This document shows, in pieces, positions 20,606 to 60,839 of a stretch of 64,000 nucleotides of DNA. Below the pieces are notes generated by a model. That model was not told the origin of the DNA and made no database searches. It saw nothing but the letters and a program-made list of their open reading frames with translations. The stretch comes from Onthophagus taurus (taxonomy: Eukaryota > Arthropoda > Insecta > Coleoptera > Scarabaeidae), in NCBI RefSeq assembly GCF_036711975.1, contig NC_091971.1, positions 20,715,501 through 20,779,500 of the forward strand, in the 5' to 3' direction. A program made the position numbers and the translations under genes. Position 1 is the stretch's first letter; each line of letters opens with the position of its first letter.

Positions 20606-20609
20606 TCCG

Positions 20610-33993: not shown

Positions 33994-35563
33994 ATGGAAG
34001 GAGCAAACAGAAACGGCCAAAATCTTAAAGGTAAATTATAATTTTTAAATGTACTTTACTATATTAATGCATCTTTAGATTTCCATCAGTTAAAAAATAT
34101 AATAGAGAAGCAAATTGACTTCAAAATACAACAAACATCGTACTGTACAAAAAATTATTACGTACAACCAATAGTTTTCCCAACACTACCTAAAAACAAT
34201 GTTAAATCATCATCAACATTTGAAGAATCATCAACAGATCATGCAAGTTCTGAAATATATTTTAAAATAACTGGGAAAACATTTTATAAATTAATGGATT
34301 TTATAAGCAAAAAGGGAATAAAGGATCACGACACCTCCAACATCGATACGATTTATGATTATTTACAATCCGATGTGCTTTCTATAAGAATGAAGATAAA
34401 GTCATCGAATTTCGAAACGTTTAAATCATGCGGAAATGAAACCGTAAAAGATGTTTGCGAGAACCTGAAAGATGTTGAAAGCACAATAAAATCTGATAAT
34501 AAAAATAAAATTTGTACACCGAAATATCACTCTTTAATATGTGAACTCATTGAAAGCGAGTACAATTATGTCGGTGATTTACACAATTTGTATCATGTAA
34601 GTTTAATAATACAAAGAAAATGTTATTTTTAATTTAACGTTTTTAGAATTACGTTCTTTATTTTAAAAGGGAAACATTTCAAAATTTCTCAGAAATTTAC
34701 GAATTTTTTACAATTATCGAACAAATTAATTTCGAACAAGGAGAATTTTACAAACAACTGATGACATACAAAAGCATCGAAGATGTTGCATCCCACTTTA
34801 TTGAAAACGAGAAATTATTCGCTTTGTACAGAAATTATATTTTAAACGTCAACGATGCAATTGATTTTTTGACCATCAAACATAGATTTGAAGTTTTAGT
34901 AAATATGAATTTAAAAAACGAAAACATTTAATAAAAATATTTATTTTTTAGAAACGCCAACAAGAATTGGGAAACGTAAAATCATTAGAGGAGCATTTAT
35001 TATTACCAATTCAACGATTAAACGAATACATTTCATTATTAGAAAATCTCGAAACTCATCTAGAACAAAATCGGATATCATCAACGAAAGTAAACGCAGT
35101 TTTATTAATTTTCAAAAAACTTCTAACCACTTCAAAAAGCGACACGAAAATCGTTGAATCTATCACAGATCGACCAAAAAGTTTAGTAAATTACGGCGGG
35201 TTTATCATGAAACAACCCTTTTATATCCGAAAGATGAGCACTAGTTTTAAAATAATCGTTTTCTTATTTCAAGAAGTCGTCATTTTTACTATTCCGAAAG
35301 ATATAGAACGTTATACTTACGTTCATAGTATTTTCATGAAAGATTTGTATATACGTCCAATTTCGGAGGTTAAACATTCATTTGAATTGATGGATTTTCA
35401 TAATCGTAGTGATAATAATGAAAAGAACGCTTATATTTTGGAAACTAGGGATCCTACAATTAAAAATACATGGGTTGAAGTTATCGAATCTTTACTTTGG
35501 GAACAATTAATGATTTGTAAGAGAAAAGTAAAGGAAAATTTAAATATGGACAAACCGATTTAG
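33994..35563 (+). CDS. Dbl-family RhoGEF (DH-PH) protein, 472 aa, four exons
   Basis: Exons 33994-34030, 34079-34596, 34647-34898 and 34952-35563 join in frame (473 codons with stop) using GTAA donors and TTTAG/TTTTAG acceptors; the introns are 48-53 bp. Residues 1-160 are a Ser/Lys-rich leader. The DH domain spans about 160-335: CR1 is ICELIESEYNYVGDLH, CR2 is around IENEKLFALYRNYI, and CR3 is LLLPIQRLNEYISLLENL (285-302), matching the P-(I/V)-Q-R signature that contacts the GTPase. The PH domain is about 350-458 (YGGFIMKQPF, then VVIFTIPKD, and the final helix with NTWVEVIESLLWEQL). The PH tail resembles the MCF2/PLEKHG4-puratrophin branch, but this is a family-level inference. It would activate a Rho-type GTPase near membranes. 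AATAAA at 35617-35622. It heads a same-strand cluster of paralogues. Confidence 0.85.
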
Positions 35564-35810
35564 TTTTAGTTTTAAGTTTTAATTAAATTTAATCATGTAT
35601 ATGTTATGGTTGATGTAATAAATCCAATTTTTATGAATAGTAACCCTATAGTGTTATTTGTACAAGAAGATAGCATTTGGAATTATAAATTATTTGTGAC
35701 TTTTCACATACATATACAGCGATTTGAATTACATCCATCCATAAAATAGCAATATTGAAATCCTTAGCAACCTAATTTTGAATTAAGTGAGGATATTCTC
35801 TTAAACTAAT

Positions 35811-36343
35811 GGCCGGTTATACAATATACCGATAAATCTACCTGATAACTATGCGACCAATAAAGTTATCGGGAGGATAAAGATATTCGCTGTTGTACAA
35901 ACTGTTTTTGTAAGTACAAAACTCGGTAACTTGTCGGTTTCTTCGCTATCGGCGAAATAAGAGTCAGTTGGTAACACTTTTTCCACATATCTAGTAATTT
36001 GTGCCGTAGGTTGGTAATGCTAACGTCTTTCTTTGAAATTTGAACGTTGTTTTTGACAATAATGACAATTGTTTAAAAAAAACACGACACACAACTGACA
36101 TAACGTACGTGTAGATATTATAGGTTAACCTATGCAGTAACCATAAAAAGTTTTTATATAAAAACCTTGGTAATCATATATATCTGGTGGATAATTGTTT
36201 TATCGGCACCGCTGATTACCCGAAAAGTTATCCTGCCGATAATTTCACCTACAAAAATATCCGTACATTGTAATACAGTAGAAACTAACTTATCGGCCAG
36301 ATAACGGTGTCGGGAAGATTATCGGTATATTGTACAACCGGAC
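35811..36343. mobile_element. 533-bp non-autonomous DNA transposon (MITE)
   Basis: Terminal inverted repeats of about 27 bp begin GGCCGGTTATACAATATACC at the left and, on the other strand, GTCCGGTTGTACAATATACC at the right. The shared interior blocks ACCGATAA and TTATCGG recur in both orientations. It has no coding capacity. The family is uncertain: the GGCCGG-type end suggests PIF/Harbinger, but the flanks do not show a clear 3-bp duplication. Confidence 0.6.
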
Positions 36344-36483
36344 TTTATTTCATTATTAGGAACATCGTCAATCGAAAAATAAGCTTCCTTGCTAATATTA
36401 AATTGTTTTCTTGTATAGAGCTGGTTTAAAAATTCCGTATTTTATACCTAGTTTATAGAGTTTTTCATTTTGAATAGACATTA

Positions 36484-37880: not shown

Positions 37881-37899
37881 CTTAATCTCTTCTAAGTTA

Positions 37900-39842: not shown

Positions 39843-39929
39843 ATCTCGACTATTATTACGTTAAATATTTCTTATAAAATTTCTGACAGAAAGTAGTTTG
39901 CAAATTTAGCAGAATATTTTTATGACGAC

Positions 39930-40500
39930 TTCTCTGATGCCATGAAACGTCTTGCAGGATACTATTATGGTCGCAAATGTTTCAAGTGGTCTAAAAATTT
40001 CCCTGCTTCTTCATGGACTACACCGTCAAGTATAATTTTTCGCCTGCCAGAAATAAAAGGTGCTTGGTCTCTTCTGATCAAAAATCATGGTGGCAAACGT
40101 TGCGTACAGACCAAGTTACGTAGGACATTTGGATGCAATTGAACTAAAAGCATTTCTGTGCCTTTTGATTTTAAACGGTGTGTTCAAATAAACTCATGAA
40201 GATACAAAATGTCTAATATTTTCAGAGGTACACAGAAGATCGTCAACACTCCGATTTGACATAGTATAATTTGATGGATTTGCTGCAATGTCAAATACAT
40301 ATAAGCAACAACTGCAAAAATAATTTTAGTTGCTAATATGTCATCGTAGATGATATGCTGTTGAATTTAGGGGTTGTTGCATAGTTTGGCAGTACATTAA
40401 AGGCAAACCTAAGAAACATGGGATCAAAATAATGTCTTTGTGTGATGCAAAACCACACTATTTATTAAACTCTCGTTTACTCAAGGAAACCAGCTGAACT
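39930..40500 (+). pseudogene. piggyBac-like remnant, copy A
   Basis: Translation in changing frames gives YYYGRKCFKWSKNFPASS and SIIFRLPEIKG (the PGBD N-terminal Trp-Ser block), AIELKAFLCLLILNGVFK, and IKGKPKKHGIKIMSLCDAK, which matches the NKPxKYGIKLxxLCD segment. The catalytic FDN part is missing. It is a different, shorter remnant from the one at 8.1-9.7 kb. Confidence 0.65.
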
Positions 40501-40739
40501 TAATGCTAGAAAAAGAACCTGGCAGTGCCAATACTATAAAGTACTTACATCACAGGATGTAAGAAGTAGGATGTAGAAATTGGTTCACTTCAATATAGTC
40601 GTTAGATTAACTAAGATGTAACAAAACAAGATGGACTAAGCAGGAATAAGCAAGACATTTCACTGACATCTACACAATAAAAGAATTCATTTGTTTGCAG
40701 AAAGCACTCAGAATCAATCATTAAATGGTTTTCATGTTT

Positions 40740-41395
40740 GCAGTTTAAAGAATTTAATTTCAAAAATAGCATTTTCAAAAAAACCACAAACGTCTACAAT
40801 GCTGATGAAACCAGTGTAACTACAGTTCGGAAACCCGACAAAGTTGTAGTAAGACAGGTGGACAGGCACTAACTCCAGGGGAAGTGGAAAGGAGTGCGTT
40901 AGTGATAGACGCCTTGAAATATTATTTCACCATTATTTGTGTTTCTACCACTGCGGTAACACTAGCGTTTTATATGAGATAAACCGGTAAGATCAACAGA
41001 TACTGCCAACCTATCAGAATGGACGGAAGACGAAACATTCCTTTTTCATTTCCTATACATTATTGAACACATATTTATATTCATCACCGTGCTACACAGA
41101 GTCCTATCAATATTAAATAATTTGTCATGTTCAATTAATTTAAAGACTTTGGAGTATTTCACAAAAAACTGTATTGTGTTACTTTCGAATCCCTCCTCTC
41201 AATCTCCCATCTCATCTCAAATGATGAAATTATATCGCCTAATTCATCTAAAATTGGACCAGAACAACCGTCAGCATCTAAGGAAATATCTGTTACCGGT
41301 GTTGAATGTTTTCCATCAACACTGGCATCAATTATTTTCTGTGCAGTATTCTGTGATCTACAGACGAGGGAAAAGATCTTAGAAACAAGCGATTA
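40740..41395 (+). pseudogene. pogo/jerky DDE_1 remnant, copy A
   Basis: The frame near 40785-40870 reads VYNADETSVTTVRKPDKVV, the first catalytic Asp motif of the DDE_1 family (IYNVDETGxTTVQKPxKV). It is followed after frame changes by ISPLFVFLP, and near the end by a C-terminal part with VTGVECFPSTLASI. Central catalytic residues are lost. Confidence 0.6.
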
Positions 41396-42027
41396 ATACA
41401 ACTTGTGATGCATCCAGGGAAAACCATGTCAAGTTGTCACAAAAATGATCCGATTGCAAAAATAAACCATTTCACAATCATTAACAATAAATAGAGGTTT
41501 CTTTAGTTTATGTGTCACCACTATTAATAATCATATATAATATTTTGAACACCGCTATCTCTCATTTACGCTATAAGTATTTTGTGCACACGCTCTACCC
41601 AACGACTCCTGACGATCGACTCTCGTCCTCAATAATCCTCTCTCTCATTTTTACATTTTGGTCATTCTTATCTTCATGCTATTCGGATGATGACTAAACA
41701 TCACGACGTTTTAGGTAAGGTTTTAAATTTGGTGTCACTGTGATATAATTTCAACCTTGTTCTTTTATTCCAGTCTTGTTACATACATTTATTTTTAGTT
41801 TGTCATTTCATTTGCCGTTGTAATGTGTTTTTCTTATTATTTTACCATGTAAGTCTATAATTTTGTATATTTATTTTATATTTAAAGATTTTTATTTTAG
41901 TTTTACTTTAAACATTTTTTAAGTTTTTAACTTATGCCTGAGTTTTTGTTCTTTTTTGTTCATTTTTGACAGTAAGTTTTATCATTTGTTTTAAGATAAT
42001 TTCTTGTTATTTATTTTTAATTTGTAG

Positions 42028-42068
42028 ATTCAGCTGATGATGGCTTATTAGACGAAACCGGTACTGAT
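42028..42068 (+). ncRNA. hammerhead-ribozyme-like motif 1, copy A
   Basis: CTGATGA (42034-42040), a stem II GGC/GAC with one mismatch around a TTATTA loop, GAAA (42054-42057), palindromic CCGG (42058-42061), then U-A (42062-42063). TCAG (42030-42033) pairs with CTGA (42064-42067) as stem I. This fits a minimal type I hammerhead with cleavage expected after 42063. An extra U sits between the CUGAUGA core and stem II. Such motifs are known in Penelope-like elements. Confidence 0.5.
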
Positions 42069-42909
42069 TATATTAAATTTTTTAGCGAGAAAGAAGTTAT
42101 TTCATTTTATTTAAATACCTAAAATGTTATATTTTATATTTATTTATTCTTTTAATTACCTTATATTCTTTCTTCATATGTTATAATTCCTTTTGTTATT
42201 ATCTTGAATTCGTTTGATTTGGTTTGCAGCATCATATCGTATTTGAGAACGTTCTTCATCTAGACGTTGCATCATATCTTCCTCTCATAATTCTTGCAGG
42301 TTTAAATCTTGTACTAGTACATATTGATTTCGGTTAATACTTTAAAAGAGGAGGAAGCTGTTCTTTTACTGATAAGGAATTAAGATATCATATTATGGTT
42401 GTGTTTTTTCCAACTTCTTCGTTTTCTTGTGATACTCTGGCTCTTTTGTGCAATAGTTTTTGAACTCATCGAATACAAATTCTCCTAGGTTTGCCGAAAA
42501 CTTTCTGTTTACTGTAGTAATATATTTATAGTTCTTATTGGTAGATAGTAGTGATCAATGTGATAAGTATCCAGCAGAGTGGGTCATTTTTCGGTTGAAT
42601 TTAGATAACCTTCAAAATTTCCAGTCTTTCTCTCCATTATACAAATTAAAAAAATTCGTAAATACAAGTTCTATCTTTTTTCTATGTTTTGGTATCCAGA
42701 ATTTCTGCGAAGAAATTCTTAGTGCGCAATTGAAGCAAATATTCGATTTGCATTTATTTTAATTCTGATAAACTTATTTCGCCTCTACCCTACTTCTCTC
42801 TAATTTTGTCATCTTAATTCAGTCTATACTACCTACTTCACGAATAGTACTTCAATTTTTAAAGTCAACATTCGACCACCTCCCAAAAAAGTAGATGTAA
42901 CATAATTTC

Positions 42910-43035
42910 CGGTACTTACAAATCATTTTTGGGCGTTACTGGTTATTTTCGAATATTCGGGAAATGTTATTTGTTTATAGCCAAGCCGTTAAGTGATTTG
43001 TTGCAAGACGATCAACATTTCTGTTTTGGAACAAC
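42910..43035 (+). pseudogene. Ty3/gypsy reverse-transcriptase fragment, copy A only
   Basis: The frame reads FLGVTGYFRIFGKCYLFIAK, then PLSDLLQDDQHF. This matches the segment of gypsy-type Pol where RT passes to the connection (GLxGYYRKFIxxFSxIAxPL, then LLKKDxxFxW). It is about 40 codons, with nothing else of the element nearby. It is absent from copy B. Confidence 0.55.
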
Positions 43036-43346
43036 TCAGAATGAAGCCTTTTGAATGAAGATTAAAGGCCATTAAGTTAAGTGAGATGTCACCCGCATAC
43101 CAAAATAGACTAGATCAGACAAGGTAGATAAAAAATTCAAGTCATGCATTTTAAATATCTAGGTGATGAAATTACAAGAAACCGTGATCTATATAGAAAA
43201 ACATACGGACTTAGAACGTTCTATGATTTTAAAATGTAAACGTGTTCTGTACATAATTTATTTAATTTTTATTTGATAACTTCAAACATTTTATTATAAT
43301 GTAACAAAATTTGATGTCTTAATTTACTTCATGACAATATAAAACT

Positions 43347-43385
43347 AGTCTCTGAAGATGGCACATAGCCGAAACTAGTAAGACT
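43347..43385 (+). ncRNA. hammerhead-ribozyme-like motif 2, copy A
   Basis: AGTCT (43347-43351) pairs perfectly with AGACT (43381-43385) as stem I. CTGAAGA (43352-43358) matches the CUGANGA core. GGC/GCC stem II closes an ACATA loop. GAAA (43371-43374), palindromic CTAG (43375-43378) and U-A (43379-43380) complete the core, and cleavage is expected after 43380. An unpaired U precedes stem II. Confidence 0.55.
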
Positions 43386-44410
43386 TATGTTTTTCATTTA
43401 ATTAAAGACCAGTTTAAAAGTATAAAAACTATACATATTTTTTTTCTGCTTGTTACAAATACTGGTAAAATGGATTTATAACTCTTTAAACAAATAATTG
43501 ACCAGTGAATTTTCGGTTTTTTGTGCATTTTTGTGTGCACAACACCTTTTTATGCTTGGTCTGTTCTGGGCAAGCGTTGCGTACGGATCAAGTTCTGTGA
43601 GACATTTGGATGATCTATCGTTTGTACTATTGACTGAAGTTAACATCACTGAAAGCATCAATATGCCTCATATGCTGTTCTAGTCGATGACGAATGATAT
43701 ATTACAATTTTTGTATTAAAAGTGACCATCGTACAACTGTAGTATATAGCTGAATAAATACTCTGTATTTGTTCTGTATTTTTAATGCTTTCTATGAGAG
43801 TCAGTACTTACATCCACGTAACTGCAACACTTTTGTTGAGCAGGTGTTGTCTTCTGCTTCATCAGTATACAGAATGTATTTTTAATCATTTTCTCTTTCC
43901 TGCCCTAATATTACAAAAAATCGAAACGTAAGAGTTATTTTCTTCTTTTTGTTCCACTTTCGACTAGGGACAATCCCTGTTTATCAACCCACGTGTTATG
44001 GGTTTTATTCCGCAGACGAAGAGAACCAACTTTAAATCCATATCTTGTGTGGTCGTCCTTGTGGTCTCATTCCTTCCGGTCGTCCACGCATACAAATTCT
44101 TGTCATTTTTTTTTTACTTATTCTTTCTATATGTTCCACTTCTTTTTTTCTGGTTTTTATCCATTTAACTACATCCTGTATGTTACATCTTTTTTTAAAT
44201 ATGAATAATAATTCCGGTATTTAAAATCTGTACCGGAAATTAATGAGATTTTATCTGAAAATTGTACTATTTTATTGTTAGTAACCTTATCAAATATTTA
44301 GGATTTATCTTGTAAAAATAATATATCTACTGTATTAACTATCCTATATATATATTATTGGGTTACGAATTTTAATAACCAGTTTGGTCCCGTTCTATGA
44401 ATTATTAACC

Positions 44411-45477
44411 ATGTTGTATACATTGGGCGGTGGTGATGTAATTGAGAGCACTAGTGTTTTAAAAACAAATACTAGATTTTTAAGGAGGTAAGTAATCGTT
44501 TTATTTAAAGATTTATCAAAATTATCAAGACATCAAAATGTATTAATTTACTAAACAGATCTAAACAAATCGAAGAAAATCCCGAAGAATACTCTATTTT
44601 TGATAATGTTGAAGAAGGAATATGCGATATTTTTGTTGGAATAAAAAATAGTTCTTACAAACCAATTGATAGAGCTCGAGCTATAAAAGAAATGATACAA
44701 AATGAATTAAATTATCACAGCAGACTTTTAGAATTTATTAAAGCTTATAAAGAAGATTCGAATCAGATGATAGCATCCAGTTTAAATTCAATTGATAAGT
44801 TAACAATATCTTTCATAGAAAATTTAAAAGATGCTAACTATGATTTAATCAAAATAACTCGTGTTTATGAAGAAAATGTAAGTAACAAATTCTTTAATAC
44901 AACTTAAATAAATTAATCAATTTATATTTTTTAGATTTACCTATTTAAAATATACTTAGATATACTTAGACAAACAACTTGTTTAACAGATTCTATTAAA
45001 TCAAGAACTCTTATTCACGCAACATTTTTAAAAATATTACTTCATTCGTTTAATCATAAAGAAGAGGAAGAAAAGGCTATAGAAGGAACTATTAACATAT
45101 GGGATAACTTAATTAATGGATATCAACATCAATTGGATATTAGTTACGATATCGAGAAAAATGTTCCGTTTAGTTCTAGAGGAAGACTTATACTGCGACT
45201 CGAATTTAAAGTTGATAAGAAAGATATGGTTGTTTTTCTATTTGAAAAGGTTCTTCTTTTTACTACGATGGCAAAACAAGATTATTTAACGTATAAAAAA
45301 CATTATTTAACATCAAATCTTATTGATGTTGAGATTTGTGACAATTCAACCAAGCTCATTTTGAGTGTAAAAGATAAGAATAATAGTGTTAAAATAATTA
45401 AATTTCGAGATCTCACAAAATCGCAAAGTCAAAATATTATTAGATTTAGGGATAGTGTTCAGCACTTAATAAATTAA
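44411..45477 (+). CDS. DH-PH-like protein, 312 aa, three exons (copy A)
   Basis: Exons 44411-44487, 44559-44877 and 44935-45477 join in frame to 313 codons with stop; the donors are GTAAGT and the acceptors ACAG and TTTTAG. Residues 70-200 are the DH-like part: RAIKEMIQNELNYHSRLLEF resembles CR1, and FIENLKDANYDLI resembles part of CR2. The CR3 P-Q-R signature seen in the 472-aa paralogue is not recognisable. The PH domain is at about 212-312 (SSRGRLILRLEF, VVFLFEKVLLFTT, final helix NIIRFRDSVQHLI). It probably lacks exchange activity, though that is inference. AATAAA at 45514-45519. The second intron falls at the position shared with the truncated neighbour (before IYLF/KQLF). The ATG is supported by the intact frame in both copies. 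Confidence 0.75.
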
Positions 45478-45699
45478 AAACATTAAAAATTGAAAGATTA
45501 TTAAAATTTGATTAATAAATTCATTTACTTGTTTTTTAATTCCACCATACTTCCGCTTCATTAACGATATTAATTTTACGAGGAAATAAATAATATAATA
45601 TTCCAACAAGGAAAATAGAATAATAATGGTGATACGTAATGTTAGTGGGAAGTAATCTACACCTATTGTGTTAAAAAATACAAAATAAAATAGTTTAAT

Positions 45700-46342
45700 A
45701 TGAACGAAAGTGATGAATTAAATGGCAAACGAAATATTGTTGATCTTATTACATATTTTGATAGTATTTCTTGTGAAATTGATGCGGGAAAATTAAGGAA
45801 ATAATTTTTATCTCTTAATGATTAATCGCCTTTCATTTCAATTTTATTAGGAATACTAAAGCTAATTGGACGTATATTAATAAGAACGTGTGCCAAACAA
45901 ATTCTTTAAAGAAAATATGTAAATCTTCCAAAATAATTGAAGAACTTTTAAACACCGAAGAAACTTACTTTCAAACTTTACGACATATAATTGGGGTATT
46001 TATTTAATTTAATAAAAGATATGTCATATTACAAAAATGTTTTCAGAGTTATATTTTTTACTTCAAACAAGAATTAAATGAAAATATGTATATTTAAAAC
46101 TTTAGAAGAATTAGGAAGGCACCAAGTAACTTTTTATGTGGATCTTTTAGATAATCAAAAAGACGCCGAAAAAATAGCACAATGTTTTTTGAAACATGTA
46201 AGTATAAATTTATATTTTAAATGTCTAATTTATCGTTCATATTTTGTTTTAGAAACAATTATTTTATTATTACAAAATTTATATTAGTGAAATGTACGAT
46301 TTATTTAATACACTTTCTACTAAATACAAGAAATTAGTTGAG
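45700..46342 (+). pseudogene. truncated DH-domain gene, copy A, broken
   Basis: Counterpart of 57349-57987. Two lesions are visible. The first donor is AAGGAA instead of AAGGTA (GT to GA at 45798-45799), so unspliced reading stops after 34 codons. There is also a 4-bp insertion (GTAT, near 46087) in exon 3 that shifts the frame into TAA. Exons by comparison with copy B: 45700-45797, 45851-45995, 46047-46197 and 46253-46342. It begins 223 bp after the 312-aa gene, on the same strand. Confidence 0.7.
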
Positions 46343-47235
46343 GTAAGTAAAAATCGTCATTGTTAATTTCAAAATATTTTATTATATTTTGTCCTAATGA
46401 AACTTATTGAAGAATCAGCAATTTTAATTTTTCTGAAACAAAACAAGAGTATTTATATCATTATTTATATTACATTCAAATGGAACTTATTGTTACACTA
46501 AGTGAGGCATGGCGAGATCATAGGTGATGTCTATGATCTTCGTTCTACCACTAACGGGTCAAAAACCAAGATTTTTTTTGTTGTACATTAGACTACATAT
46601 ATTTATCTACATGTAGACTCAGCTCGTCGTGATAGACCCTGATGGAAAACTCAGCAACCATCTGGTTCTACTATTTAACAGCACACGTCTTCATCACTTC
46701 TTCTTTAACTTTTTCGAAAAATTCTAATATTTTCGTCATATGTCAATGACCATTTTGGGAAAGTTAAAATGACAACTGTTTTGTTTTGTTAACTATTTCC
46801 TATAGACCCTAAAATTTATAATTCGGCTAACTCGGCCGCATTTCAGAATCAGGATGCAATAACACTAAATCTTCTGTAGAATCTTGTACGTTCTATCTTC
46901 GTCGTTGGTTAGACTTCATACTGGCAGAAGAAGTTTACCTTTCTACCAGTCTATTCCGATCTAACTCTCGCCATTAAATAGGAGTGAAGCCTGGCGATAA
47001 ATCACGTATTGTTGCTTGAATCAAGGGCGTAGAATTCCGTATTCGGAGCAACAAAAGTAACAGTGAGGTATTCGTAGTTTTCTGTACAATGTTAGCGGAA
47101 ATCGCTTTTTAGATTATTTTATTTTTATAGCTATTTATTTATTTCTTTAAAATTTTAGTATTCGTGCCTCATCACACTTCCATCTTGAGGTAAAAATTGT
47201 AGCCAAAACTGGTGAAGTCAATCATATTCTGCTAA
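46343..47235. other. spacer after truncated DH gene (copy A); equivalent 57988-58890 in copy B
   Basis: No exon with DH CR3 or PH similarity was found. A sequence near 47186 (CTTGAGG, then GTAGCC, then AAAACTGGT) looks like a further, badly decayed relative of the hammerhead-like motif. Confidence 0.4.
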
Positions 47236-47239
47236 TTCG

Positions 47240-48470
47240 TTTTTAGATTGGGGCTTTTGAATAAGATAAAGACAACTACATGGGAAATTCTGGACATATG
47301 GGCGGATTTTAATGTAGAACAGTTCAAAGATGGAAAACGGACACAAACACTGGAGGGAGAAGAAGATGAAATAACAGAAGACACTATGGACATAGCAACT
47401 GAAGAGATAACAATGGAAGAACTACATGGATGAAGATGAAAACAGACAAGACTTGCGGCAAAGACAAGATAGACACGGAGATGATAAAACATTTTGGAAT
47501 AAAAGGGAAGGAGTGGCTTCTAAGTATATATAAGCCCCATGGGCCGCATGGGAGTCGGAAACAGTCCTGAAAGATTGGGAAGATAATATCATCTTACCAA
47601 TACATAAAAAAGAAGATACTCGAAATGAGCAAGGGAATAAAACAAGGCGATAGCCTAAGCCCTTTGTTATTTACAATATTAATGGATAGAATGATAAAAA
47701 ATACAAGAACAAGAACAAATAAATATCAAACAGTAATAGGTTATAAAAGTTTGGAACCAGTAAAAATAGATAATTTACTATGTGCTGATGACTATAGTGC
47801 TGATAGCAGAGAACCATGAAAAGGCAAGGAAGTTAGTTGAAATATGGACAGAAGAAATTGAAAAGATGGGACTAGAATTGAACGTAAATAAATGTAAAAT
47901 CGTAATAATAAATAAAAAGAAATAAGAAATAACCCGTAAGAAATATTTATTAAGGAACAAAAGATAGAAAAAGTACTATCATATGAGTACTTGGGCAGTA
48001 TAATATCACAAGGTGGAAGGAAAAATTTAGACATAAATGCAAGAATAAGGAAAACAAACAACGTACATCATACTTTAAACAGAACAATTTTTGGGAAGAA
48101 AGAGATAGATAAAAAGATAACATTGAAAGTGTAGAACGCGGTGGCAGTCCCAATATTAATTCACTCCCATATGCCAGTGAATCATGGACACTCCAAGATA
48201 AACAAGAAGGAAAGATCACAGCAATGGAAATGAAATCTTTACGGAAAATAGTGAGGAAGACAAAGTGGGATAGGATAAGTAATGAGAAAATAAGACTGGG
48301 AGAAGATGAAGAGGAGATAATCAGCAAAACAGAAAGAAACCAACTAAACTGGTACACACACATAATTAGAATGGAACATAACACAATACTAAAAAAGGCA
48401 TTTGAAGCAAAGAAAAAGGATAAGACTCTAGCAGATATAAAGGAATTAGCCAGAAACCGGAGGGAGTGAA
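47240..48470 (+). pseudogene. RTE-like LINE RT fragment, copy A
   Basis: Pieces in order: KDKIDTEMIKHFGIKGKEW, GIKQGDSLSPLLFTILMDR (RT motif 4), the catalytic box as CADDYSADS (YADD changed to CADD), and thumb/C-terminal blocks such as VVNVKKC-like and RKIVRKTKWDRIS. Stops and frameshifts occur throughout. QGDSLSPLLF and the C-terminal YTHIIRMEHN style fit RTE-type elements. Confidence 0.6.
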
Positions 48471-48519
48471 AGAGGTGGATGGAGGAAGGTTTTTTACAAT
48501 GCACACCTGCCTAGTATCC

Positions 48520-49160
48520 TACAATATTATCAAATAGTTTCAATAACTCCCTGGTCTAATTCAACATCATCTATAAAGTTTTTTATCCCTATTTGATATC
48601 TCTCAAAATCAGATCTGTCTTTTGTTAAAATCTTTCTTAGCAATACTCAACATTGGATCTGAGAAGTCCCAGTTATGGTATTGACCTCGCTAATTATCGT
48701 CCCTATCATCTTTCAAGGTCGTTCATGGCGTCCATTATTTTGTCTAGGACTTTCACCTCTCATTCTGAGCAGTTCTGGGAGAATACTATCACTTCTACTT
48801 CTTCTATTTTGTAATGACGTTATTATATTATCAGTTTCATCTACTCATCTACTAATACAACCGTATTAGTTCATGTTTTTGTTATTCCCACACTTCATCT
48901 TCCGAGTACTCTTCCTCATTTACCACTGTTTTGACTCTCAGCAATTCTTTGAATATTCCTTCCAAGTATTTTTAATTTCTTCGATATCACTAATTATTTC
49001 ACCCTTCGTGTCTTTGCATAGTGTGGTTTCAATCTCTGTCTCTGCCTCTCTATGTATTTATAGGCTAAATAAAGGCGCAACGTACAGTCTGGAACACACA
49101 CCAGCCGAATTGGATGGAGCCCCTCTATCCCCGCATGGTTTATTTCTGTTTTTTTAAAAC
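48520..49160 (-). pseudogene. RTE-like LINE fragment on minus strand, copy A
   Basis: Degenerate counterpart of 60180-60800, where the minus strand reads CRDTKGKIISDVEEIKKTWK, the segment between endonuclease and RT in RTE-type elements. It faces the plus-strand RTE piece tail to tail. Confidence 0.45.
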
Positions 49161-49189
49161 TTATTATTCGCTTAAATCACCTATTCAAA

Positions 49190-49731
49190 ACAGAAATCTT
49201 TTTGTCAAATAGTATTTGAGAATGTCTGTACTTGGATAATGTTTATGCTGACGGAAATATGTTTGGCCCGTTTTGCTTTTGTAAAATTAATACGGGCAGA
49301 TGTAGCCTCATTTACTTGACTGTCCATTGCTAATCTTATTAATTGATATTGTTGGTTTATTGGCACTGCTTCGTTATCTTTACATAACAGCCATTATAGC
49401 AGTATCATAGGTAAAAGTGAATATCACTGGTATACAGTAGGCAGCAGCCTGGCCTTAATACACTACCTTGTGATAATCCTGCGTTAATTTCTTTAAGTTT
49501 AGAGTATGGATTGTCCTGATTAACCGTCGCAATCCTTAGCAGTACTCCTAGGAGTTGTGAAAAATACATAGGTAAGAGCTTGTTTCGTTTGTAGTGAAGT
49601 CTTACATGCCACATTCTATCAAATGCCTGAGCTATATCTAGGAATATAGTGGCGAAATTTTCTTTCTTCCAACAACTTTTCAATTATATCTATAATTCTG
49701 TGAATCTGATCAATAGTTGGATTATATTTTG
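49190..49731 (-). pseudogene. Jockey-like RT fragment ending copy A
   Basis: The minus strand encodes FATIFLDIAQAFDRMWHVRL, INAGLSQGSVLRPG and LLYTSDI, then in shifted frames a YDTAIM block (the degenerate catalytic ADD box) and VNEATSARINFTKAK. Frameshifted and missing its active site. Confidence 0.6.
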
Positions 49732-49869
49732 TTCTTCAATAACTAGATTCGTTCCGGCGTTAAGTGGGTTTCCTGAAGGCATACACACAAGGGTAAGTAC
49801 TGATTCATTAGCACTTTTAATTCAGCAGAATGTTGAATCAGTCCATTGCAATTCCATTGAAGTATATTA

Positions 49870-51231
49870 ATGGTTGACGTGTTGAACTTTATTGTAAAAA
49901 GAGAAATGCTGAATCAGTATAAGAGAAAAATAAATAAATAAATAACAATCAAACAAAGAATGTATATGAGACAATAAGACACGTGTAAATAAACATGACT
50001 GTACCGCAGTGGGTAAGTCGTCTCCTGAAGTCAGTGTCGGATTTCTTGGTCTACCTTTCTGCCAACCTTTCTTTTTCTTGTGCAGACCCGTTTTTGAGTC
50101 AACGGACAGCTCCGACATTTCGTCTGTCGATGACGTTTGGTTGCCTTCTCTTTTCCGTTTGTCCGAACCGGACTCGAAATGGAAAAGGTTTGCCTGACTG
50201 GCTCTCTCTACATTTTCCACCGGGAGGTCCATAATCTGTGGTGTTTTAAAAATTGGAGTCGCTGGTTTAACGAACGGACTGGGAGAACTTGTTTGCTGTA
50301 TCAGCGGTTTGATAGCAGCAACTATTGCCGGGATGAGATCTTTCACCAAGCTATCATACTTGGGCTGTGTGCTAACAACCGCTGATTACGACACTCCCGA
50401 AACAGGCGTGCGCTGCATCGCTTGCACCTTACGTTTCGCTTCGGCATACGTTAGCCGCTCCTTCGTCTTAATTTCTTGAATCGCGACTTCCTTTTTATAT
50501 ACAGGACACACCCTCGACCGAGCCGAGTGCGGTCCGCCACAGTTCACACACACAAGGGGACTTTCACAAGGCTGACCTTCATGCGCGGCCTTTCCACAAA
50601 CACATATTTGTTCGGCCTCACAGCGCAAGGATGTGTGGCCGAACCTTTGACATTTAAAACAGCGCATTGGCGCGGGTATATATATATCCTTACTTCTAAG
50701 GCGTAAAATGCTGCCTTGACCTTTTTTGGCAGAGAGAGCTTTATTGAAGGTAAGTATATGGTTGGGTGTGTCTACCAATAATCCGGCCTTCCTGGTTTTA
50801 ATTCTCCTCACTTCAATCACACCTTGCCCCTTCATTTCTTGTTGAATCTCCTCCTCAGTGCAATTGAGGAGATCAGGACAATAGACAATACCTTTGGTAA
50901 CATTAAGTGTTTTGTGTGGGATCACTTCCACCTCGATATCGCCTAGGCGTTCACTGGAGAGAACGCGTTTTGCCTGAGCGATCGACGCAGCTTTCATTAG
51001 GATACCCTCCGCGATCTTTTTAATAGACTTAAAGCCACCAAATTTACCAAACAAACATTTTTGCAAAGCAAACGGGCTCATTTTTTCGAAAGATTTTCCT
51101 TTCAGCGGTTTAACCACCAGGAACCGGGGTATGACCTCCTTTTCCTGGTTGATGGTTTTGTCCATTTTTTGAGAGTCGGGCGCCTCTGGAATGGGTTTTC
51201 TCGTTGAAGTTGCCATTCTTTTCGGTTTCAC
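49870..51231 (-). pseudogene. Jockey-like ORF1 (gag-like, CCHC zinc knuckles), one premature stop
   Basis: The minus-strand frame starts MKPKRMATSTRKP (or at the inner Met) and runs to an in-frame TAA at 50386-50388. It then stays open to about 49870 (LVKDLIPAIVAAIKPL, then KKKKGWQKGRPRNP). About 280 plus 150 codons. Three zinc knuckles lie near residues 190-240: CFKCQRFGHTSLRC (CX2CX4HX4C), CVCGKAAHEGQPC, and CVNCGGPHSARSRVC. Such proteins coat the LINE RNA. Apart from the single stop the frame is well preserved, indicating a young insertion. Confidence 0.8.
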
Positions 51232-51835
51232 CAGCGCATCGTATGAGAAGGGGCGGGCTGAAATGGTCGGGAACGGGTATACCCTCGGTTATAGAAACCT
51301 ACCCCAGTTCCCTGAGGCCCGACCTTCAATTATCCGGTTCCGAAAAACACGGACGAACCGGAACCCTCCCGGAGCAGTGTAAGTTCCGACCCTTAAATCC
51401 ATCGCACACTTCCTGATCAGGGCCCGAAGTGGCTGGCCTCTGACACGTACCCAGTCCCCCCTCGGCAGAGCAAGCTCACATCAGCCTCCTCCACCTCCGG
51501 CCGAGACACCGGAGGCTTCGTCAGCACTCCCAGGGTTTCCAAAATACGTGCCAATCACATAAAAACGAAAAAGAGGACGAAAAACAAGAGACGTAACAAG
51601 CCGGTGCCGTGCCGGTCCTGGCGAAAAAACAGACTATAGAAGTCAGGCTGGTTGGTCCGCGTCGGGTTAACCCGATACTCGAAGAAGCGAGCGTTCCCCT
51701 ATCCGCCACCTGGGGACGCGCCCGGTGGGGGCCCAGCTCCCCCGCGGGATCTCGACTATTATTACGTTAAATATTTCTTATAAAATTTCTGACAGAAAGT
51801 AGTTTGCAAATTTAGCAGAATATTTTTATGACGAC

Positions 51836-52425
51836 TTCTCTGATGCCATGAAACGTCTTGCACGATACTATTATGGTCGCAAATGTTTCAAGTGGTCTAA
51901 AAATTTCCCTGCTCTTTCAAAGACTACACTGTCAAGTATAATTTTTTGCCTGCCAGGAATAAAAGGTGCTTGGTCTCTTCTGATCAAAAATCATGGCGGC
52001 AAACGTTGCGTACAGACCAAGTTACGTAGAACGTTTGGATACAATTGAACTAAAAGCATTTCTGTGCCTTTTGATTTTAAACGGTGTGTTCAAATAAACT
52101 CATGAAGATACAAAAAGTCTAATATTTTCAGAGGTACACAGAAGATCGTCAACACTCCGATTTGACATAGTATAATTTGATGGATTTGCTGCAATGTCAA
52201 ATACATATAAGCAACAACTGCAAAAATAATTTTAGTTGCTAATATGTCATCGTAGATGATATGCTGTTGAATTTAGGGGTTGTTGCATAGTTTGGCAGTA
52301 CATTAAAAGCAAACCTAAGAAACATGGGATCAAAATAATGTGTTTGTGTGATGCAAAACCACACTATTTATTAAACTCTCGTTTACTCAAGGAAATCAGC
52401 TGAACTTAATGCTAGAAAAAGAACC
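51836..52425 (+). pseudogene. piggyBac-like remnant, copy B
   Basis: Duplicate of 39930-40500 with several substitutions (for example PASSWTTPSS becomes PALSKTTLSS). Same blocks, same lesions. Confidence 0.65.
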
Positions 52426-52689
52426 TGGCAGTGCCAACACGCATACTAAAGTTAGTGTTTTCAATTCAAAATACTATAAAGTACTTACATCACAGGATGT
52501 AAGAAGTAGGATGTAGGAATTGGTTCACTTCAATATAGTCGTTAGATTAACTGAGATGTAACAAAACAAGATGGACTAAGCAGGAATAAGCAAGACATTT
52601 CACTGACATCTACACAATAAAAGAATTCATTTGTTTGCAGAAAGCACTCAGAATCAATCATTAAATGGTTTTCATGTTTGCAGTTTAAA

Positions 52690-53335
52690 GAATTTAATAT
52701 CAAAAATAGCATTTTCAAAAAAACAACAAACGTCTACAATGCTGATGAAACCAGTGTAACTACAGTTCGGAAACCCGACAAAGTTGTAGTAAGACAGGTA
52801 GACAGGCACTAACTTCAGTGGAAGTGGAAAGGAGTGCGTTAGTGATTGACGCCTTGAAATACTATTTCACCATTATTTGTGTTTCTACCACTGCGGTAAC
52901 ACTAGCGTTTTATATGAGATAAACCGGTAAGATCAACAGATACTGCCAACCTATCAGGATGGACGGAAGACTAAACATTCCTTTTTTATTTCCTATACTT
53001 TATTGAACACATATTTATATTCATCACCGTTGTACAGAGTGCTATCAATATTAAATAATTTGTCATGTTCAATTACTTTAAAGACTTTGGAGTATTGCAC
53101 AAAAAACTGTATTGTGTTACTTTCGAATCCCCCTTCTCAATCTCCCATCTCATCTCAAATGATGAAATTATATCGCCTAATTCATCTAAAAGTAGGCCAG
53201 AACAAGCGTCAGCATCTAAGGAAATATCTCTTACCGGTGTTGAGTGTTTTCCATCAACACTGGCATCAATTATTTTCTGTGCAGTATTCTGTGATCTACA
53301 GACGAGGGAAAAGATCTTAGAAACAAGCGATTAAT
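52690..53335 (+). pseudogene. pogo/jerky DDE_1 remnant, copy B
   Basis: Duplicate of 40740-41395, with the same NADET motif and the same decay. Confidence 0.6.
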
Positions 53336-53964
53336 ACAACTTGTGATGCATCCAGGGAAAACCATGTCAAGTTACCACAAGAATGATTCGATTGCAAAAA
53401 TAAACCATTTCTCAATCATTAACAATAAATAGAGGTTTCTTTAGTTTATGTGTCACAACTATTAATAGTCATATATAATATTTTGAACACCGCTATCTCT
53501 CATTTACGCTATAAGTATTTTGTGCACACGCTCTACCCAATGACTGCTGACGATCGACCCTCGTCCTTAATAATCCTCTCTCTCATTTTTACATTTTGGC
53601 CATTCTTATCTTCATGCGATTCGGATAATGACTAAACTTCACTACGTTTTAGGTACGGTTTTAAATTTGGTGACACTGTGATATAATTTCAACCTTTTTT
53701 TTTATTCCAGTCTTGTTACATACATTTATTTTTAGTTTGTCATTTCATTTGCCGTTGTAATGTGTTTTTCTTGTTATTTTACCATGTAAGTCTATAATTT
53801 TGTATATTTATTTTATATTTAAAAATTTTCATTTTAGTTTTACTTTAAACATTTTTTAAGTTTTTAACTTATGTCTGAGTTTTTGTTCTTGTTTGTTCTT
53901 TTTTGACAGTAAGTTTTATCATTTGTTTTAAAATAATTTCTTGTTATTCATTTTTAATTGGTAG

Positions 53965-54008
53965 ATTCAGCTGATAATGGCTTATTGGCCGAAACCGGTA
54001 CTGATTAT
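53965..54008 (+). ncRNA. hammerhead-ribozyme-like motif 1, copy B (core mutated)
   Basis: Same layout as 42028-42068. The core reads CTGATAA (53971-53977), with the conserved G changed to A, but stem II is intact (GGC/GCC). Copies A and B thus carry different single lesions of one ancestral motif. Self-cleavage is unlikely here. Confidence 0.45.
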
Positions 54009-55200
54009 ATTAAATTTTTTAGCGAGAAAGAAGTTATTTCATTTTATTTAAATACCTAAAATTTTATATTTTATATTTATTTATTCTTTTAATTACCTTA
54101 TATTCTTTCTTCATATGTTATAATTTCTTTTGTTATTATCTTGAATTCGTTTGATTTGGTTTGCAGCATCATATCGTATTTGAGAACGTTCTTCATCTAG
54201 ACGTTGCATCATATCTTCCTCTCATAATTCTTGCAAGTTTAAATCTTGTACTAGCACATATTGATTTCGGTTAATACTTTAAAAGAGGAGGAAGCTGTTC
54301 TTTTACTGATAAGGAATTGAGATATCATATTATGGTTGTGTTTTTCCAACTTCTTCGTTTTCTTGTGGTACTCTGGCTCTTTTGTGCAATAGTTTTTGAA
54401 CTCTTCGAATACAAATTCTCGTAAATTTGCCGAAAACTTTCTGTTTACTGTAGTAATATATTAATAGTCCTTATTGGTAGATAGTAGTGATCAATGTGAT
54501 AAGTATCCAGCAGAGTAGGTCATTTTTGGATTGAATTTCGATAACTTTCAAAATTTCCAGTCTTTCTCTCCATTATACAAATTAAAAAAATTCGTAAATA
54601 CAAATTCTATCTTTTTTCAATGTTTTGGCATCCAGAATTTCTGCGAAGAAATTCTTAGTGCGCAATTGAAGCAAATATCCGATTTGCATTTATTTTAATT
54701 TTGATAAACTTATTTCGTCTCTACCCTACTTCTCTCTAATTTTGTCACCTTAATTTTGTCTATACCACCTACTTCACGAATAGTACTTCAATTTTTAAAG
54801 TCAACGTTCGACCACCTCCCAAAAAAGTAGATGTAACATAATTTCCGGTACTTACAAATCATTTTTGGGCATTACTGGTTATTTTCGAATTTATTTTTTC
54901 GCCTTTTGAATGAAGATTAAAGGCCATTAAGTTAAGTGAGATGTCACCCGCAGACCAAAACAGACTAGATCAGACAAGGTCGATAAAAAATTCAAGTCAT
55001 GCATTTTAAATATCTAGGTGTTGAAATTACAAGAAACCGTGATCTATATAGAAAAACATAAGGACTTAGAACGTTCTATGATTTTAAAATGTAAACGTGT
55101 TCTGTACATAATTTATTTAATTTTTATTTGATAACTTCAAACATTTTATTATAATGTAACAAAATTTGATGTCTTAATTTACTTCATGACAATATAAAAT

Positions 55201-55239
55201 AGTCTCTGAAGATGGCACATAGCCGAAACTAGTAAGACT
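55201..55239 (+). ncRNA. hammerhead-ribozyme-like motif 2, copy B
   Basis: Every core and stem base of 43347-43385 is preserved (AGTCT, CTGAAGA, GGC-ACATA-GCC, GAAA, CTAG, U-A, AGACT), with expected cleavage after 55234. Confidence 0.55.
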
Positions 55240-56059
55240 TATGTTTTTCATTTAATTAAAGACCAGTTTAAAAGTACAAAAACTATACATGTTTTTTTCT
55301 TCTTGTTACAAATACTGGTAAAATGGACTTATAACTCTTTAAACAAATAATTGACCAATTGTGCATTTTTTGTGTGCACAACACCTTTTGATGCTTGGTC
55401 TGTTCTGGGCAAGCGTTGCGTACGGATCAAGTTCCGTGAGACATTTGGATGATCTATCGTTTGTACTATTGACTGAAGTTAACATCACTGAAAGCATCAA
55501 TATGCCTCATATGCTGTTCTAGTCGATGACGAATGATATATTACAATTTTTATATTAAAAGTGACCATCGTACAACTGTAGTATATAGCTGAATAAATAC
55601 TCTGTATTTGTTCTGTATTTTTAACGCTTTCAATGAGAGTCAGTACCTACATCCACGTAACTGCAATACTTTTGTTGAGCAGGTGTTGTCTTCTGCTTCA
55701 TCAGTATACAGAATGTATTTTTAATCATTTTCTCTTTCCTGCCCTAATATTACAAAAAATCGAAACGTAGAAGTTATTTTCCTTCCACTTCTTTTTTCTG
55801 GTTTTTATCCATTTAACTACATCCTGTATGTTACATCTTTTTTTTAAATATGAATAATAATTCCGGTATTTAAAATATGTACCGGAAATTAATGAGATTT
55901 TATCTGAAAATTGTATTATTTTATTGTTAGTAACCTTATCAAATATTTAGGATTTATCTTGTAAAAATAATATATCTACCGTATTAACTATCCTATATAT
56001 ATATTATTGGGTTACGAATTTTAATAACCAGTTTGGTCCCGTTCTATGAATTATTAACC

Positions 56060-57131
56060 ATGTTGTATACATTGGGCGGTGGTGATGTGGTTGAGAGCAC
56101 TAGTGTTTTAAAAACAAATACTAGATTTTTAAGCAGGTAAATAATATAATCGTTTTATTTAAAGATTTATCAAAATTATCAAGACATCAAAATATATTAA
56201 TTTACATAACAGATCTAAACAAATCGAAGAAAATCCCGAAGAATACTCTATTTTTGATAATGTTGAAGAAGGAATATGCGATATTTTTGTTGGAATAAAA
56301 AATAGTTCTTACAAGCCAATTGATAGAGCTCGAGCGATAAAAGAAATGATACAAAATGAATTAAATTATCACAGCAGACTTTTAGAATTTATTAAAGCTT
56401 ATAAAGGAGATTCGAATCAGATGATAGCATCCAGTTTAAATTCAATTGATAAGTTAACAATATCTTTCATAGAAAATTTAAAAGATGCTAACTATGATTT
56501 AATCAAAATAACTCGTGTTTATGAAGAAAATGTAAGTAACAAATTCTTTAATACAACTTAAATAAATTAATCAATTTATATTTTTTAGATTTACCTATTT
56601 AAAATATACTTAGATATACTTAGACAAACAACTTGTTTAACAGATTCTATTAAATCAAGAACTCTTATTCACGCAACATTTTTAAAAATATTACTTCATT
56701 CGTTTAATCATAAAGAAGAGGAAGAAAAGGCTATAGAAGGAACTATTAACATATGGGATAACTTAATTAATGGATATCAACATCAATTGGATATTAGTTA
56801 CGATATCGAGAAAAATGTTCCGTTTAGTTCTAGAGGAAAACTTGTACTGCGACTCGAATTTAAAGTTGATAAGAAAGATATGGTTGTTTTTCTATTTGAA
56901 AAGGTTCTTCTTTTTACTACGATGGCAAAACAAGATTATTTAACGTATAAAAAACATTATTTAACATCAAATCTTATTGATGTTGAGATTTGTGACAATT
57001 CAACCAAGCTCATTTTGAGTGTAAAAGATAAGAATAATAGTGTTAAAATAATTAAATTTCGAGATCTCACAAATTCGCAAAGTCAAAATATTATTAGATT
57101 TAGGGATAGTATTCAGTACTTAATAAATTAA
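56060..57131 (+). CDS. DH-PH-like protein, 312 aa, three exons (copy B)
   Basis: Exons 56060-56136, 56213-56531 and 56589-57131; same exon lengths, phases and protein length as copy A. Eight amino-acid differences from A: I to V and R to S in exon 1, E to G in exon 2, then R to K, I to V, K to N, V to I and H to Y in exon 3. There are only three synonymous changes. That ratio is about what unconstrained drift would give, although both frames and all splice sites remain intact. AATAAA at 57168-57173. Domain reading is as for copy A: PH domain clear, CR3 of DH not recognisable. Confidence 0.75.
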
Positions 57132-57348
57132 AAACATTAAAAATTGAAAGATTCTTAAAATTTGATTAATAAATTCATTTACTTGTTTTTTAATTCCACC
57201 ATACTTCCATTAACGATATCAATTTTACGAGGAAATAGATAAGATAATATTCCAACAAGGAAAATAGAATAATAATGGTGATACGTAATGTTAGTGGGAA
57301 GTAATCTACACCTATTGTGTTAAAAAATACAAAATAAAATAGTTTAAT

Positions 57349-57987
57349 ATGAACGAAAGTGATGAATTAAATGGCAAACGAAATATTGTTGATCTTATTA
57401 CATATTTTGATAGTATTTCTTGTGAAATTGATGCAGGAAAATTAAGGTAATAATTTTTATCTCTTAATGATTAATCGTCTTTCAATTCAATTTTATTAGG
57501 AATACTAAAGCTAATTGGACATATATTAATAAGAACGTATGCCAAAAAAATTCTTTTAAGAAAATATGTAAATCTTCCAAAATAATTGAAGAACTTTTAA
57601 ACACCGAAGAAACTTACTTTCAAACTTTACGACATATAATTGGGGTATTTATTTAATTTAATAAAAGATATGTCATACTACCAAAATGTTTTCAGAGTTA
57701 TATTTTTTATTTCAAACAAGAATTAAATGAAAATATATTTAAAACATTAGAAGAATTAGGAAGGCACCAAGTAACTTTTTATGTGGATCTTTTAGATAAT
57801 CGAAAAGACGCTGAAAAAATAGCACAATGTTTTTTGAAACATGTAAGTATAAATTTATATTTTAAATGTTTAATTTATCGTTAATATTTTGTTTTAGAAA
57901 CAATTATTTTATTATTACAAAATTTATATTAGTGAAATGTACGATTTATTTAATACACTTTCTACTAAATACAAGAAATTAGTTGAG
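57349..57987 (+). CDS. N-terminal DH half of a RhoGEF-like protein, copy B, open but truncated
   Basis: Exons 57349-57446, 57500-57644, 57696-57842 and 57898-57987 give 160 codons in one frame, followed by a good donor (GAG|GTAAGT). Encoded: MNESDELNGKRNIV, then the DH CR1 (KIIEELLNTEETYFQTLRHI), SYIFYFKQELNENIF, and KQLFYYYKIYISEMYDLF. The last exon ends exactly where exon 3 of the 472-aa gene ends (KLVE versus FEVL, both phase 0). The missing part is therefore the exon with CR3 and PH. No such exon was found in 57988-58890 before LINE sequence begins. If the last intron is retained, translation stops after seven more residues. It could be a short protein, a decaying gene, or one whose final exon lies outside the window. 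Confidence 0.6.
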
Positions 57988-58893
57988 GTAAGTAAAAATC
58001 GTCATTGTTAATTTCAAAATATTTTATTATATTTTGTCCTAATGAAACTTATTGAAGAATCAGCAATTTTAATTTTTCTAAAACAAAACAAGAGTATTTA
58101 TATCATTAGATATAAGGGAATATGTAGCCCAAACTCAATAATAATCACATTCTTTCTCAAATGGAACTTATTGTTACACTAAGATCATAGACATTACCTT
58201 CGTTCTACCACTAACTGGTCAAAAACCAAGATTTTTTTCGTTGTACATCAGACTACATATATTTGGTTACATGTAGACTCAGCTCGTCGTGATAGACCCT
58301 GCACATCTGATGAAAAACTCAGCAACCATCACTTCTTTTTTATCATTTTCGAAAAATTCTAATATTTTCGTCATATGTCAATGACCATTTTGGGAAAGTT
58401 AAAATCACAACTGTTCTTTAGCTGTTTTGTTAACTATTTCCTATAGACCCTAAAATTTATGATCCGGCTAACTCATTTACGGCCGTATTTCAGAAGCAGA
58501 ATGCAATAACACAAAGTCTTCTGTAGAAACTTGTGCGTTCTCTCTTCGTCGTTGATTAGAATTCTTACTGGCAGAAGAACCTAACCTTTCCACCAATCTA
58601 TTCCGATCTAACTCTCACCTTTAAATAGGTGTCAAGCCTGGCGATAAATCACGTATTGTTGCTTGAATCAAGGGCGTAGAATTCCGTATTCGGAGCAACA
58701 AAAGTAACAGTGAGGTATTCGTAGTTTTCTGTACAGTGCTAGCGGAAATCGCAGACCGTTTTTTAGATTATTTTATTTTTATAGATATTTATTTATTTCT
58801 TTAAAATTTTAGTATTCGTGCCTCATCACACTTCCATCTTGAGGTAAAAATTGTAGCCAAATCTGGTGAAGTCAATCATATTCTGCTAATTCG

Positions 58894-60116: not shown

Positions 60117-60179
60117 AAGAGGTGGATGGAGGAAGGTTCTTTACAATGCACACCTGCCTAGTATCCTACAATATTATCA

Positions 60180-60800: not shown

Positions 60801-60839
60801 GTTTCTTTTTAACTTATAATTCGCTTAAATCACCTGTTC

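Follow-up and report, generated by a model that had tools for sequence, protein, structure and literature searches.

A 64,000-nucleotide window of the Onthophagus taurus genome (contig C6, NC_091971.1; C6:20715501-20779500) carries part of a tandem cluster of genes related to the Rho guanine nucleotide exchange factors (RhoGEFs). Judged from the sequence, eight loci make up the cluster, seven open reading frame (ORF) models and one pseudogene, on a stretch of ~58 kb. The cluster is real, partly decayed and most likely of Trio/PLEKHG4 type. We consider it probable that it has evolved by birth and death from a Trio/PLEKHG4-type RhoGEF with a Dbl homology (DH) and a pleckstrin homology (PH) domain, and that it now holds putatively catalytic members (G5, G6 and G7) beside putatively non-catalytic ones (G1, G2/G4 and G8). 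The loci are listed below; positions past 64,000 or below 1 are window coordinates extended beyond the window.

33994..35563, + strand: G1, a DH-PH gene of 472 amino acids, a spliced ORF with GT/AG borders and matches to Pfam RhoGEF and SOS1_NGEF_PH
33994-34030, 34079-34596, 34647-34898, 34952-35563, + strand: exons of G1, from the spliced ORF
39843..49731, no strand: duplication copy 1, holding G2 and G3 (blastn pieces, global alignment with 51749-61429)
44411..45477, + strand: G2, a degenerate DH-PH gene of 312 amino acids (exons 44411-44487, 44559-44877, 44935-45477)
45700..46342, + strand: G3, a pseudogene copy of G5 (donor lost, frameshift, last exon missing)
49732..51748, no strand: spacer of ~2 kb between the copies, outside the alignment of both, with a minus-strand CCHC ORF at 50389-51288
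51749..61429, no strand: duplication copy 2, holding G4 and exons 1-4 of G5 (blastn pieces, global alignment)
56060..57131, + strand: G4, the second 312-amino-acid gene, 97.4% identical to G2 (exons 56060-56136, 56213-56531, 56589-57131)
57349-57446, 57500-57644, 57696-57842, 57898-57987, + strand: G5 exons 1-4, predicted to encode, with exon 5, a DH-only protein of 223 amino acids
57988..64000, + strand: the first 6.0 kb of the predicted 7.7-kb intron 4 of G5, containing retroelement pieces and what remains of the duplicated segment
65725-65916, + strand, beyond the window: G5 exon 5, in phase with exon 4 and bringing the DH domain to full length
from 66818, + strand, outside the window: G6, at least 815 amino acids, RhoGEF and PH, C-terminus not reached
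82646 to 80215, - strand, outside the window: G7, 704 amino acids, RhoGEF and PH
91664 to 90418, - strand, outside the window: G8, ~320 amino acids, degenerate, PH-like matches below cut-off only

Pfam scans covered G1, G2, G5, G6, G7 and G8; G4 is 97.4% identical to G2. The RhoGEF profile (PF00621, curated cut-off 27.6 bits) was exceeded by G1 (53.4 bits, E=4.8e-14), G5 (73.5 bits, 3.2e-20), G6 (85.2 bits, 8.5e-24) and G7 (79.9 bits, 3.4e-22), and SOS1_NGEF_PH (27.7 bits) by G1 (38.8 bits, 1.2e-9), G6 (36.3 bits, 7.4e-9) and G7 (41.7 bits, 1.5e-10). The initial annotation had proposed DH/PH similarity for all five loci that it recognized in the window; by profile this stood for G1 and for the first four exons of G5 alone (RhoGEF, 6.1e-10), but not for G2, which gave no RhoGEF match at E≤1 and a PH match below cut-off (21.2 bits, 3.5e-4). 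G8 behaved similarly, with no RhoGEF match at E≤0.01 and a PH match of 22.9 bits. As no RhoGEF match exceeded the cut-off, we filed G2/G4 and G8 as diverged relatives rather than as RhoGEFs.

The relationship of these degenerate members was then examined with profiles of our own. With a profile of G1, G5, G6, G7, the gene at C2:21239121 described below and Trio, G2 scored 31.4 bits and G8 39.6 bits; the best shuffled sequences reached 7.5 bits for G2 (485 scored) and 4.8 bits for G8 (449 scored). With a profile built without cluster members the scores were 17.3 (G2), 16.1 (G4) and 12.1 bits (G8), and the best shuffles reached 9.0 (G2) and 8.6 bits (G8; 500 made each, 480 and 482 scored). Because the profile scores exceed the best shuffles, we conclude that G2 and G8 are remote relatives of the DH-PH proteins; for G8 the margin is narrow with the profile that has no cluster members. 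BLASTP among the seven models, run against a tiny database and without composition correction, linked every member to the others directly or via G1, G6 or G7.

Concerning the extent of the cluster, it reaches ~91.7 kb, with G6 (+), G7 (-) and G8 (-) lying downstream of the window. When all six-frame ORFs of at least 20 amino acids over 174 kb were scanned by profile, no ninth member was found, as nothing outside the known loci matched at E<1. A Pfam RhoGEF search of the whole genome (290.8 Mb in 33 contigs) gave 36 matching places from 44 scored candidates, four of them in the cluster and two of these four in G5; it misses G1, G2/G4 and G8. Among telomere-repeat patterns, TCAGG was not found in this genome, and TTAGG occurred at a single place, on C3. 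Except for the copied pair, identity between members is only ~20-35%, and the branches of G2 (5.6) and G8 (5.9) are very long in the tree that included them. The idea of a local cluster of diverged RhoGEF relatives was thus borne out. The accompanying description as small and minimal fits G1, G2/G4, G5 and G8. It does not fit G6 and G7, which have long N-termini that, by eye, seem disordered.

Outside the cluster, both G7 (36% identity, E=2.2e-15) and G6 (40%, 1.9e-11) matched the gene at C2:21239121 best; one of the two queries began with one mistyped residue. This C2 gene is perhaps PLEKHG4/puratrophin-1-like (Drosophila Pura, CG33275). In a tree of ten rows, constructed without G2, G4 and G8, G1, G5, G6 and G7 formed one group (support 100/99) that the C2 gene joined (96/95), and a tree of seven rows, without G5 and two others, gave 100/99 and 99/97. 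The comparison rows in these trees were five genes of this genome assembled from ORF pieces with approximate junctions, four of the five incomplete; G4 was in no tree, and the rows included few GEFs of other branches. The branches of G6 and G7 (~1.0-1.3) were no longer than those of several other GEF rows. The top-ranking PDB entries were Trio, Dbs and ARHGEF25 (in the case of G1, Trio and Kalirin), which suggests that the family is close to the Trio/Dbs/ARHGEF25 branch of the Dbl GEFs. The best E values there were 9.4e-57 for the C2 gene (ARHGEF25), and 6.2e-23 for G6, 5.3e-19 for G7 and 1.6e-9 for G1 (Trio 6d8z); G2 had 0 phmmer matches at E≤10. Taken as a series, these values point to a gradient of change from the C2 gene through G6, G7 and G1 to G2.

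We aligned G1, G2, G5, G6, G7 and G8 (alignment A1) and compared the conserved regions CR1 and CR3 of the DH domain. All six rows keep the second glutamate of CR1. At CR3, G6 has PVQRTTRY, G7 PVQRLGRY and G5 PFQRLTRY. G1 reads PIQRLNEY, a charge reversal with an acid in the position of the basic residue, and G8 has a degraded PERKIISM. G2 has a gap in A1 that leaves 28 residues of G7 (27 of G6) unpartnered, PVQ of CR3 included, and after the gap reads RTLIHATF, hardly recognizable as CR3. A second profile skips about the same stretch in both G2 and G4. By alignment, G2/G4 lack the start of CR3 and some 25 residues before it. For comparison, E1047 (CR1) and N1232 of Tiam1 contact Rac1, according to PMC7884829.

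G5, G6 and G7 keep a recognizable CR3 and look competent. With CR1 and CR3 recognizable, their most likely action would be to catalyse the release of GDP from a Rho-family GTPase, whose switch I and switch II the DH helices would contact; the PH domain would help membrane placement in G6 and G7, and G5 would act with its DH domain alone. On the other hand, G1, G2/G4 and G8 combine DH-PH ancestry by the profile test with an altered, degraded or partly deleted CR3 in A1. They are candidate pseudo-GEFs, a known kind of protein, and would most likely be without exchange catalysis. Their kept frames suggest that any action would be non-catalytic, through the PH domain or a DH surface. Our sequence data establish the homology, the common introns, the duplication, the pseudogene and how CR3 looks in the alignment; all splicing, catalysis, the GTPase substrate and any non-catalytic role are inferred.

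Intron positions are shared across the cluster. Intron A (before x-Y-x-x-[YH]-F, phase 0) falls at column 25 of A1 in all four members that carry it (G1, G5, G6 and G7), and intron B (before KQLF/IYLF, phase 0) at column 83 in all five rows with it (G2, G5, G6, G7 and G8), G4 being like G2. Intron C (after FEVL/KLVE, phase 0) falls at column 115 in G1, G5 and G6, and in G8 at column 116, a shift of one codon where the alignment is poor. G1 is without B, G7 without C, and G2 and G8 without A. Intron C is also present in the C2 gene (FFK|SKQIQLG) and is therefore older than the cluster; introns A and B are absent from the C2-gene exon covering their places. The introns before KQLF/IYLF and after FEVL/KLVE were already recognized in the initial annotation and are confirmed here, bordered by GT..AG and in phase 0, as are the places of the five same-strand loci (G1, G2 and G4 at the coordinates above) and the products of 472 and, twice, 312 amino acids that splicing yields.

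The five window loci represent three gene types, not five, because a tandem duplication has made the pairs G2+G3 and G4+G5 out of a single unit. The copies, 39843-49731 and 51749-61429, lie in direct tandem and align over 9,506 positions with 352 mismatches and 33 gaps, so that the unit of ~12 kb differs by 3.7% between copies. Each copy carries a 312-amino-acid gene and, ~220 bases behind it, a DH gene. That two of each gene were originally noted is due to this duplication, and the view of five independent minimal genes had to be given up. In the spacer, the ORF at 50389-51288 on the minus strand contains a zinc knuckle (zf-CCHC_6, 4e-5) and is read as a gag remnant of a retroelement.

The claim of two truncated DH genes was likewise not upheld. 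G3 is clearly a broken gene: the first donor GT is lost, a 4-nucleotide insertion breaks the frame in exon 3, and the last exon is missing, for which reasons we call it a pseudogene. A counterpart of G5 exon 5 was not found on the copy-1 side, where the only tblastn match had 21.6% identity (E 1.5). G5, on the contrary, is complete with exon 5, the RhoGEF match then covering positions 1-180 of 180. Its intron 4 has the donor gtaagt at 57988 and the acceptor AG at 65723-65724, two stops follow exon 5, and the 901 bases after the stop hold no PH remnant. With this exon 4-5 splice, G5 would be a DH-only protein. ORFs resembling reverse transcriptase, judged by eye, are present at 64010-64770 inside the predicted intron.

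Several results weigh against our reading. All splice models, including the 7.7-kb G5 intron, were derived from sequence, and in the G8 model the exon 1/2 junction is without a GT donor, a GT..AG alternative seen by eye a few bases away turning four residues into one. When G1 was searched alone, the sole match outside the cluster was C6:13037538 (E 0.0013) and the C2 gene was not listed; genome searches with G2 returned G2 and G4 only, and with G8 only G8 itself. For the ten-row tree the program warned that two long rows, G1 and G5, come together. In a tree that included G2 and G8 the cluster had support of 66/100; one of its nine branches was starred, and seven of the nine forks were open. 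Predicted structures of G2 exon 3 and G1 exon 4 (AlphaFold2) had mean confidence values (predicted local distance difference test, pLDDT) of 36.6 and 40.4 and consequently prove nothing. Between G2 and G4 we counted eight non-synonymous and three synonymous changes, a ratio of non-synonymous to synonymous rates (dN/dS) of 0.64 that is not clearly below 1. Coding divergence of this pair (11/939) was lower than that of the non-coding part of the duplication (332/8,087, p=8e-7), which speaks for our reading, but not significantly lower than that of nearby non-coding sequence (18/780, p=0.09), and local gene conversion would explain the lower value as well as selection.

These G2/G4 data bear on the possibility of plain decay, in which G1, G2/G4 and G8 would be dying, functionless remnants of a formerly functional cluster. 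A dN/dS of 0.64 is compatible with neutrality, G3 is already a pseudogene, G2/G4 have lost part of CR3 and G8 has it in degraded form, and the branches of G2 and G8 are very long. We regard this explanation as possible but doubtful, taking into account the state of the frames. In first-order Markov sequences of the same make-up (2,000 runs each), in-frame stops averaged 31.6 for G1 and 27.0 for G2, with minima of 17 and 12; none was observed, and therefore the frames reflect coding history. The splice borders of G1, G2 and G4 are GT..AG. Furthermore, both G2 and G4 stayed open after the duplication without an indel in 939 coding positions, for which the chance at the non-coding rate is 0.024.

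The idea put forward in the initial annotation amounts to a lineage-specific set of minimal, fast-evolving GEFs that are active and might serve one tissue, for example the germline. The divergence and tandem growth of the cluster agree with this, and there is a precedent, though no evidence, for the germline idea in Fgd2 and Tiam2, GEFs involved in sperm transmission distortion of the mouse t-haplotype, going by titles cited in PMC12941216. Nevertheless, four of the seven open models (G1, G2, G8 and, by identity to G2, G4) are without a normal CR3 and two members are large, and we consider this reading unlikely. An assembly artefact, in which two haplotypes placed end to end would mimic two copies of the 12-kb unit, is improbable: direct tandem order would fit, and so would the divergence, since haplotypes of some insects differ by as much, but the 2-kb spacer lies outside the alignment of both copies, the copies differ by 33 gaps, and G5 runs on into an exon 5 of which copy 1 shows no trace.

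Within the preferred birth-and-death reading, a more specific version can be conceived, in which the locus mixes active GEFs with dead DH-PH relatives. G2/G4 would have lost the start of CR3 while their frame stayed open through the later duplication, and would act as decoys at the same GTPase or membrane as G5-G7, competing with or tethering them, perhaps in the germ line. We offer this as speculation with little chance of being right.

Both flanks of the cluster contain further ORF series. On the left, from -48 to -29 kb (L009 to L012), serial similar ORFs occur, some tailed by a PTDE or PTEE repeat; by eye they look like chitin deacetylases, and the two pieces tested had no Pfam match at E≤0.01. 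On the right, at ~92-107 kb (L016 to L018), a series of CRAL_TRIO-type ORFs adjoins the GEF cluster (one tested, 2.4e-18) and seems to be a second family grown in tandem on the same stretch; a protein kinase piece follows at 114 kb (Pfam 2.1e-43). Within the window, a 290-base direct repeat at 36588-37328 has copies 451 bases apart and 95% identical, and two minus-strand ORFs there begin EITTEQELERALKTSNLRQ. At 20544-22427 (+) lies a single ORF of 628 amino acids with a weak leucine-rich repeat match (LRR_6, 2.2e-5), presumably resembling the centrosome protein CEP78. A 784-amino-acid ORF at 15203-17554 (+) with a reverse transcriptase domain (RVT_1, 2.3e-33) is a fairly intact retroelement ORF. 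A 134-amino-acid piece at 8823-9224 (+) matches the transposase profile DDE_Tnp_1_7 (6.6e-11) and is, we assume, piggyBac-like. Two adjoining ORFs at 2288-3397 (-; 190 and 179 amino acids) look transposase-like by eye, the 190-amino-acid ORF having no Pfam match at E≤0.001.

The cluster offers a natural series in which a signalling gene family is breaking down or being put to new use, with graded states of one domain at one locus: DH-PH with CR3, DH alone, CR3 charge-reversed, CR3 partly deleted and pseudogene. What makes it interesting is that the catalytic part is lost to differing degrees and that the G2/G4 frames are open although they contain no normal CR3. Such a series would let one ask which parts of the DH domain are dispensable and whether dead GEFs serve a purpose. 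Among the open-licence papers that our searches listed, no title dealt with tandemly clustered RhoGEF genes of insects, and the main text of PMC7560327 does not mention RhoGEF, nucleotide exchange, puratrophin or guanine.

Compared with the Trio branch (Trio, Dbs/MCF2L, ARHGEF25/p63RhoGEF and Kalirin), G1, G6 and G7 show the same order of DH followed by PH, whereas G5 is without PH and G2/G4 and G8 are without a normal CR3. The scanned proteins also differ in that Pfam found no CRAL-TRIO, spectrin or SH3 domain (E≤1 in G1 and G2, E≤0.01 in G5-G8; upstream exons are possible). An N-terminal CRAL-TRIO domain with spectrin repeats is usual in Trio, Dbs and PLEKHG4; since ARHGEF25 typically does without it, it is not defining. 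The C2 gene, our candidate PLEKHG4-like relative, resembles the cluster in being the top outside match of G7 and G6, in intron C and in its grouping with the cluster, and is unlike it in its short branch (0.37-0.50 versus 0.94-2.53 for G1, G5, G6 and G7). For a DH-only protein such as G5, a precedent is the arthropod protein PsGEF (protostome-specific GEF), the RhoGEF part of which by itself induces Rac-like ruffling of HeLa cells (PMC2684095); PsGEF has C2 and PDZ domains, neither of which Pfam found in G1, G2, G5, G6, G7 or G8.

Pseudo-GEF DH domains are themselves already known. The DH-PH part of Bcr-Abl is without exchange activity in vitro and was termed a pseudo-GEF together with six other Dbl members (PMC5727386), and obscurin, of the Trio subfamily and likewise without exchange activity in vitro, was proposed to be a pseudo-GEF whose contact residues differ, CR3 among them (PMC10118190). 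In these sources such domains are single parts of very large proteins, whereas G2/G4 would be small whole proteins, predicted to be inactive, in which by alignment ~28 residues including the start of CR3 are missing.

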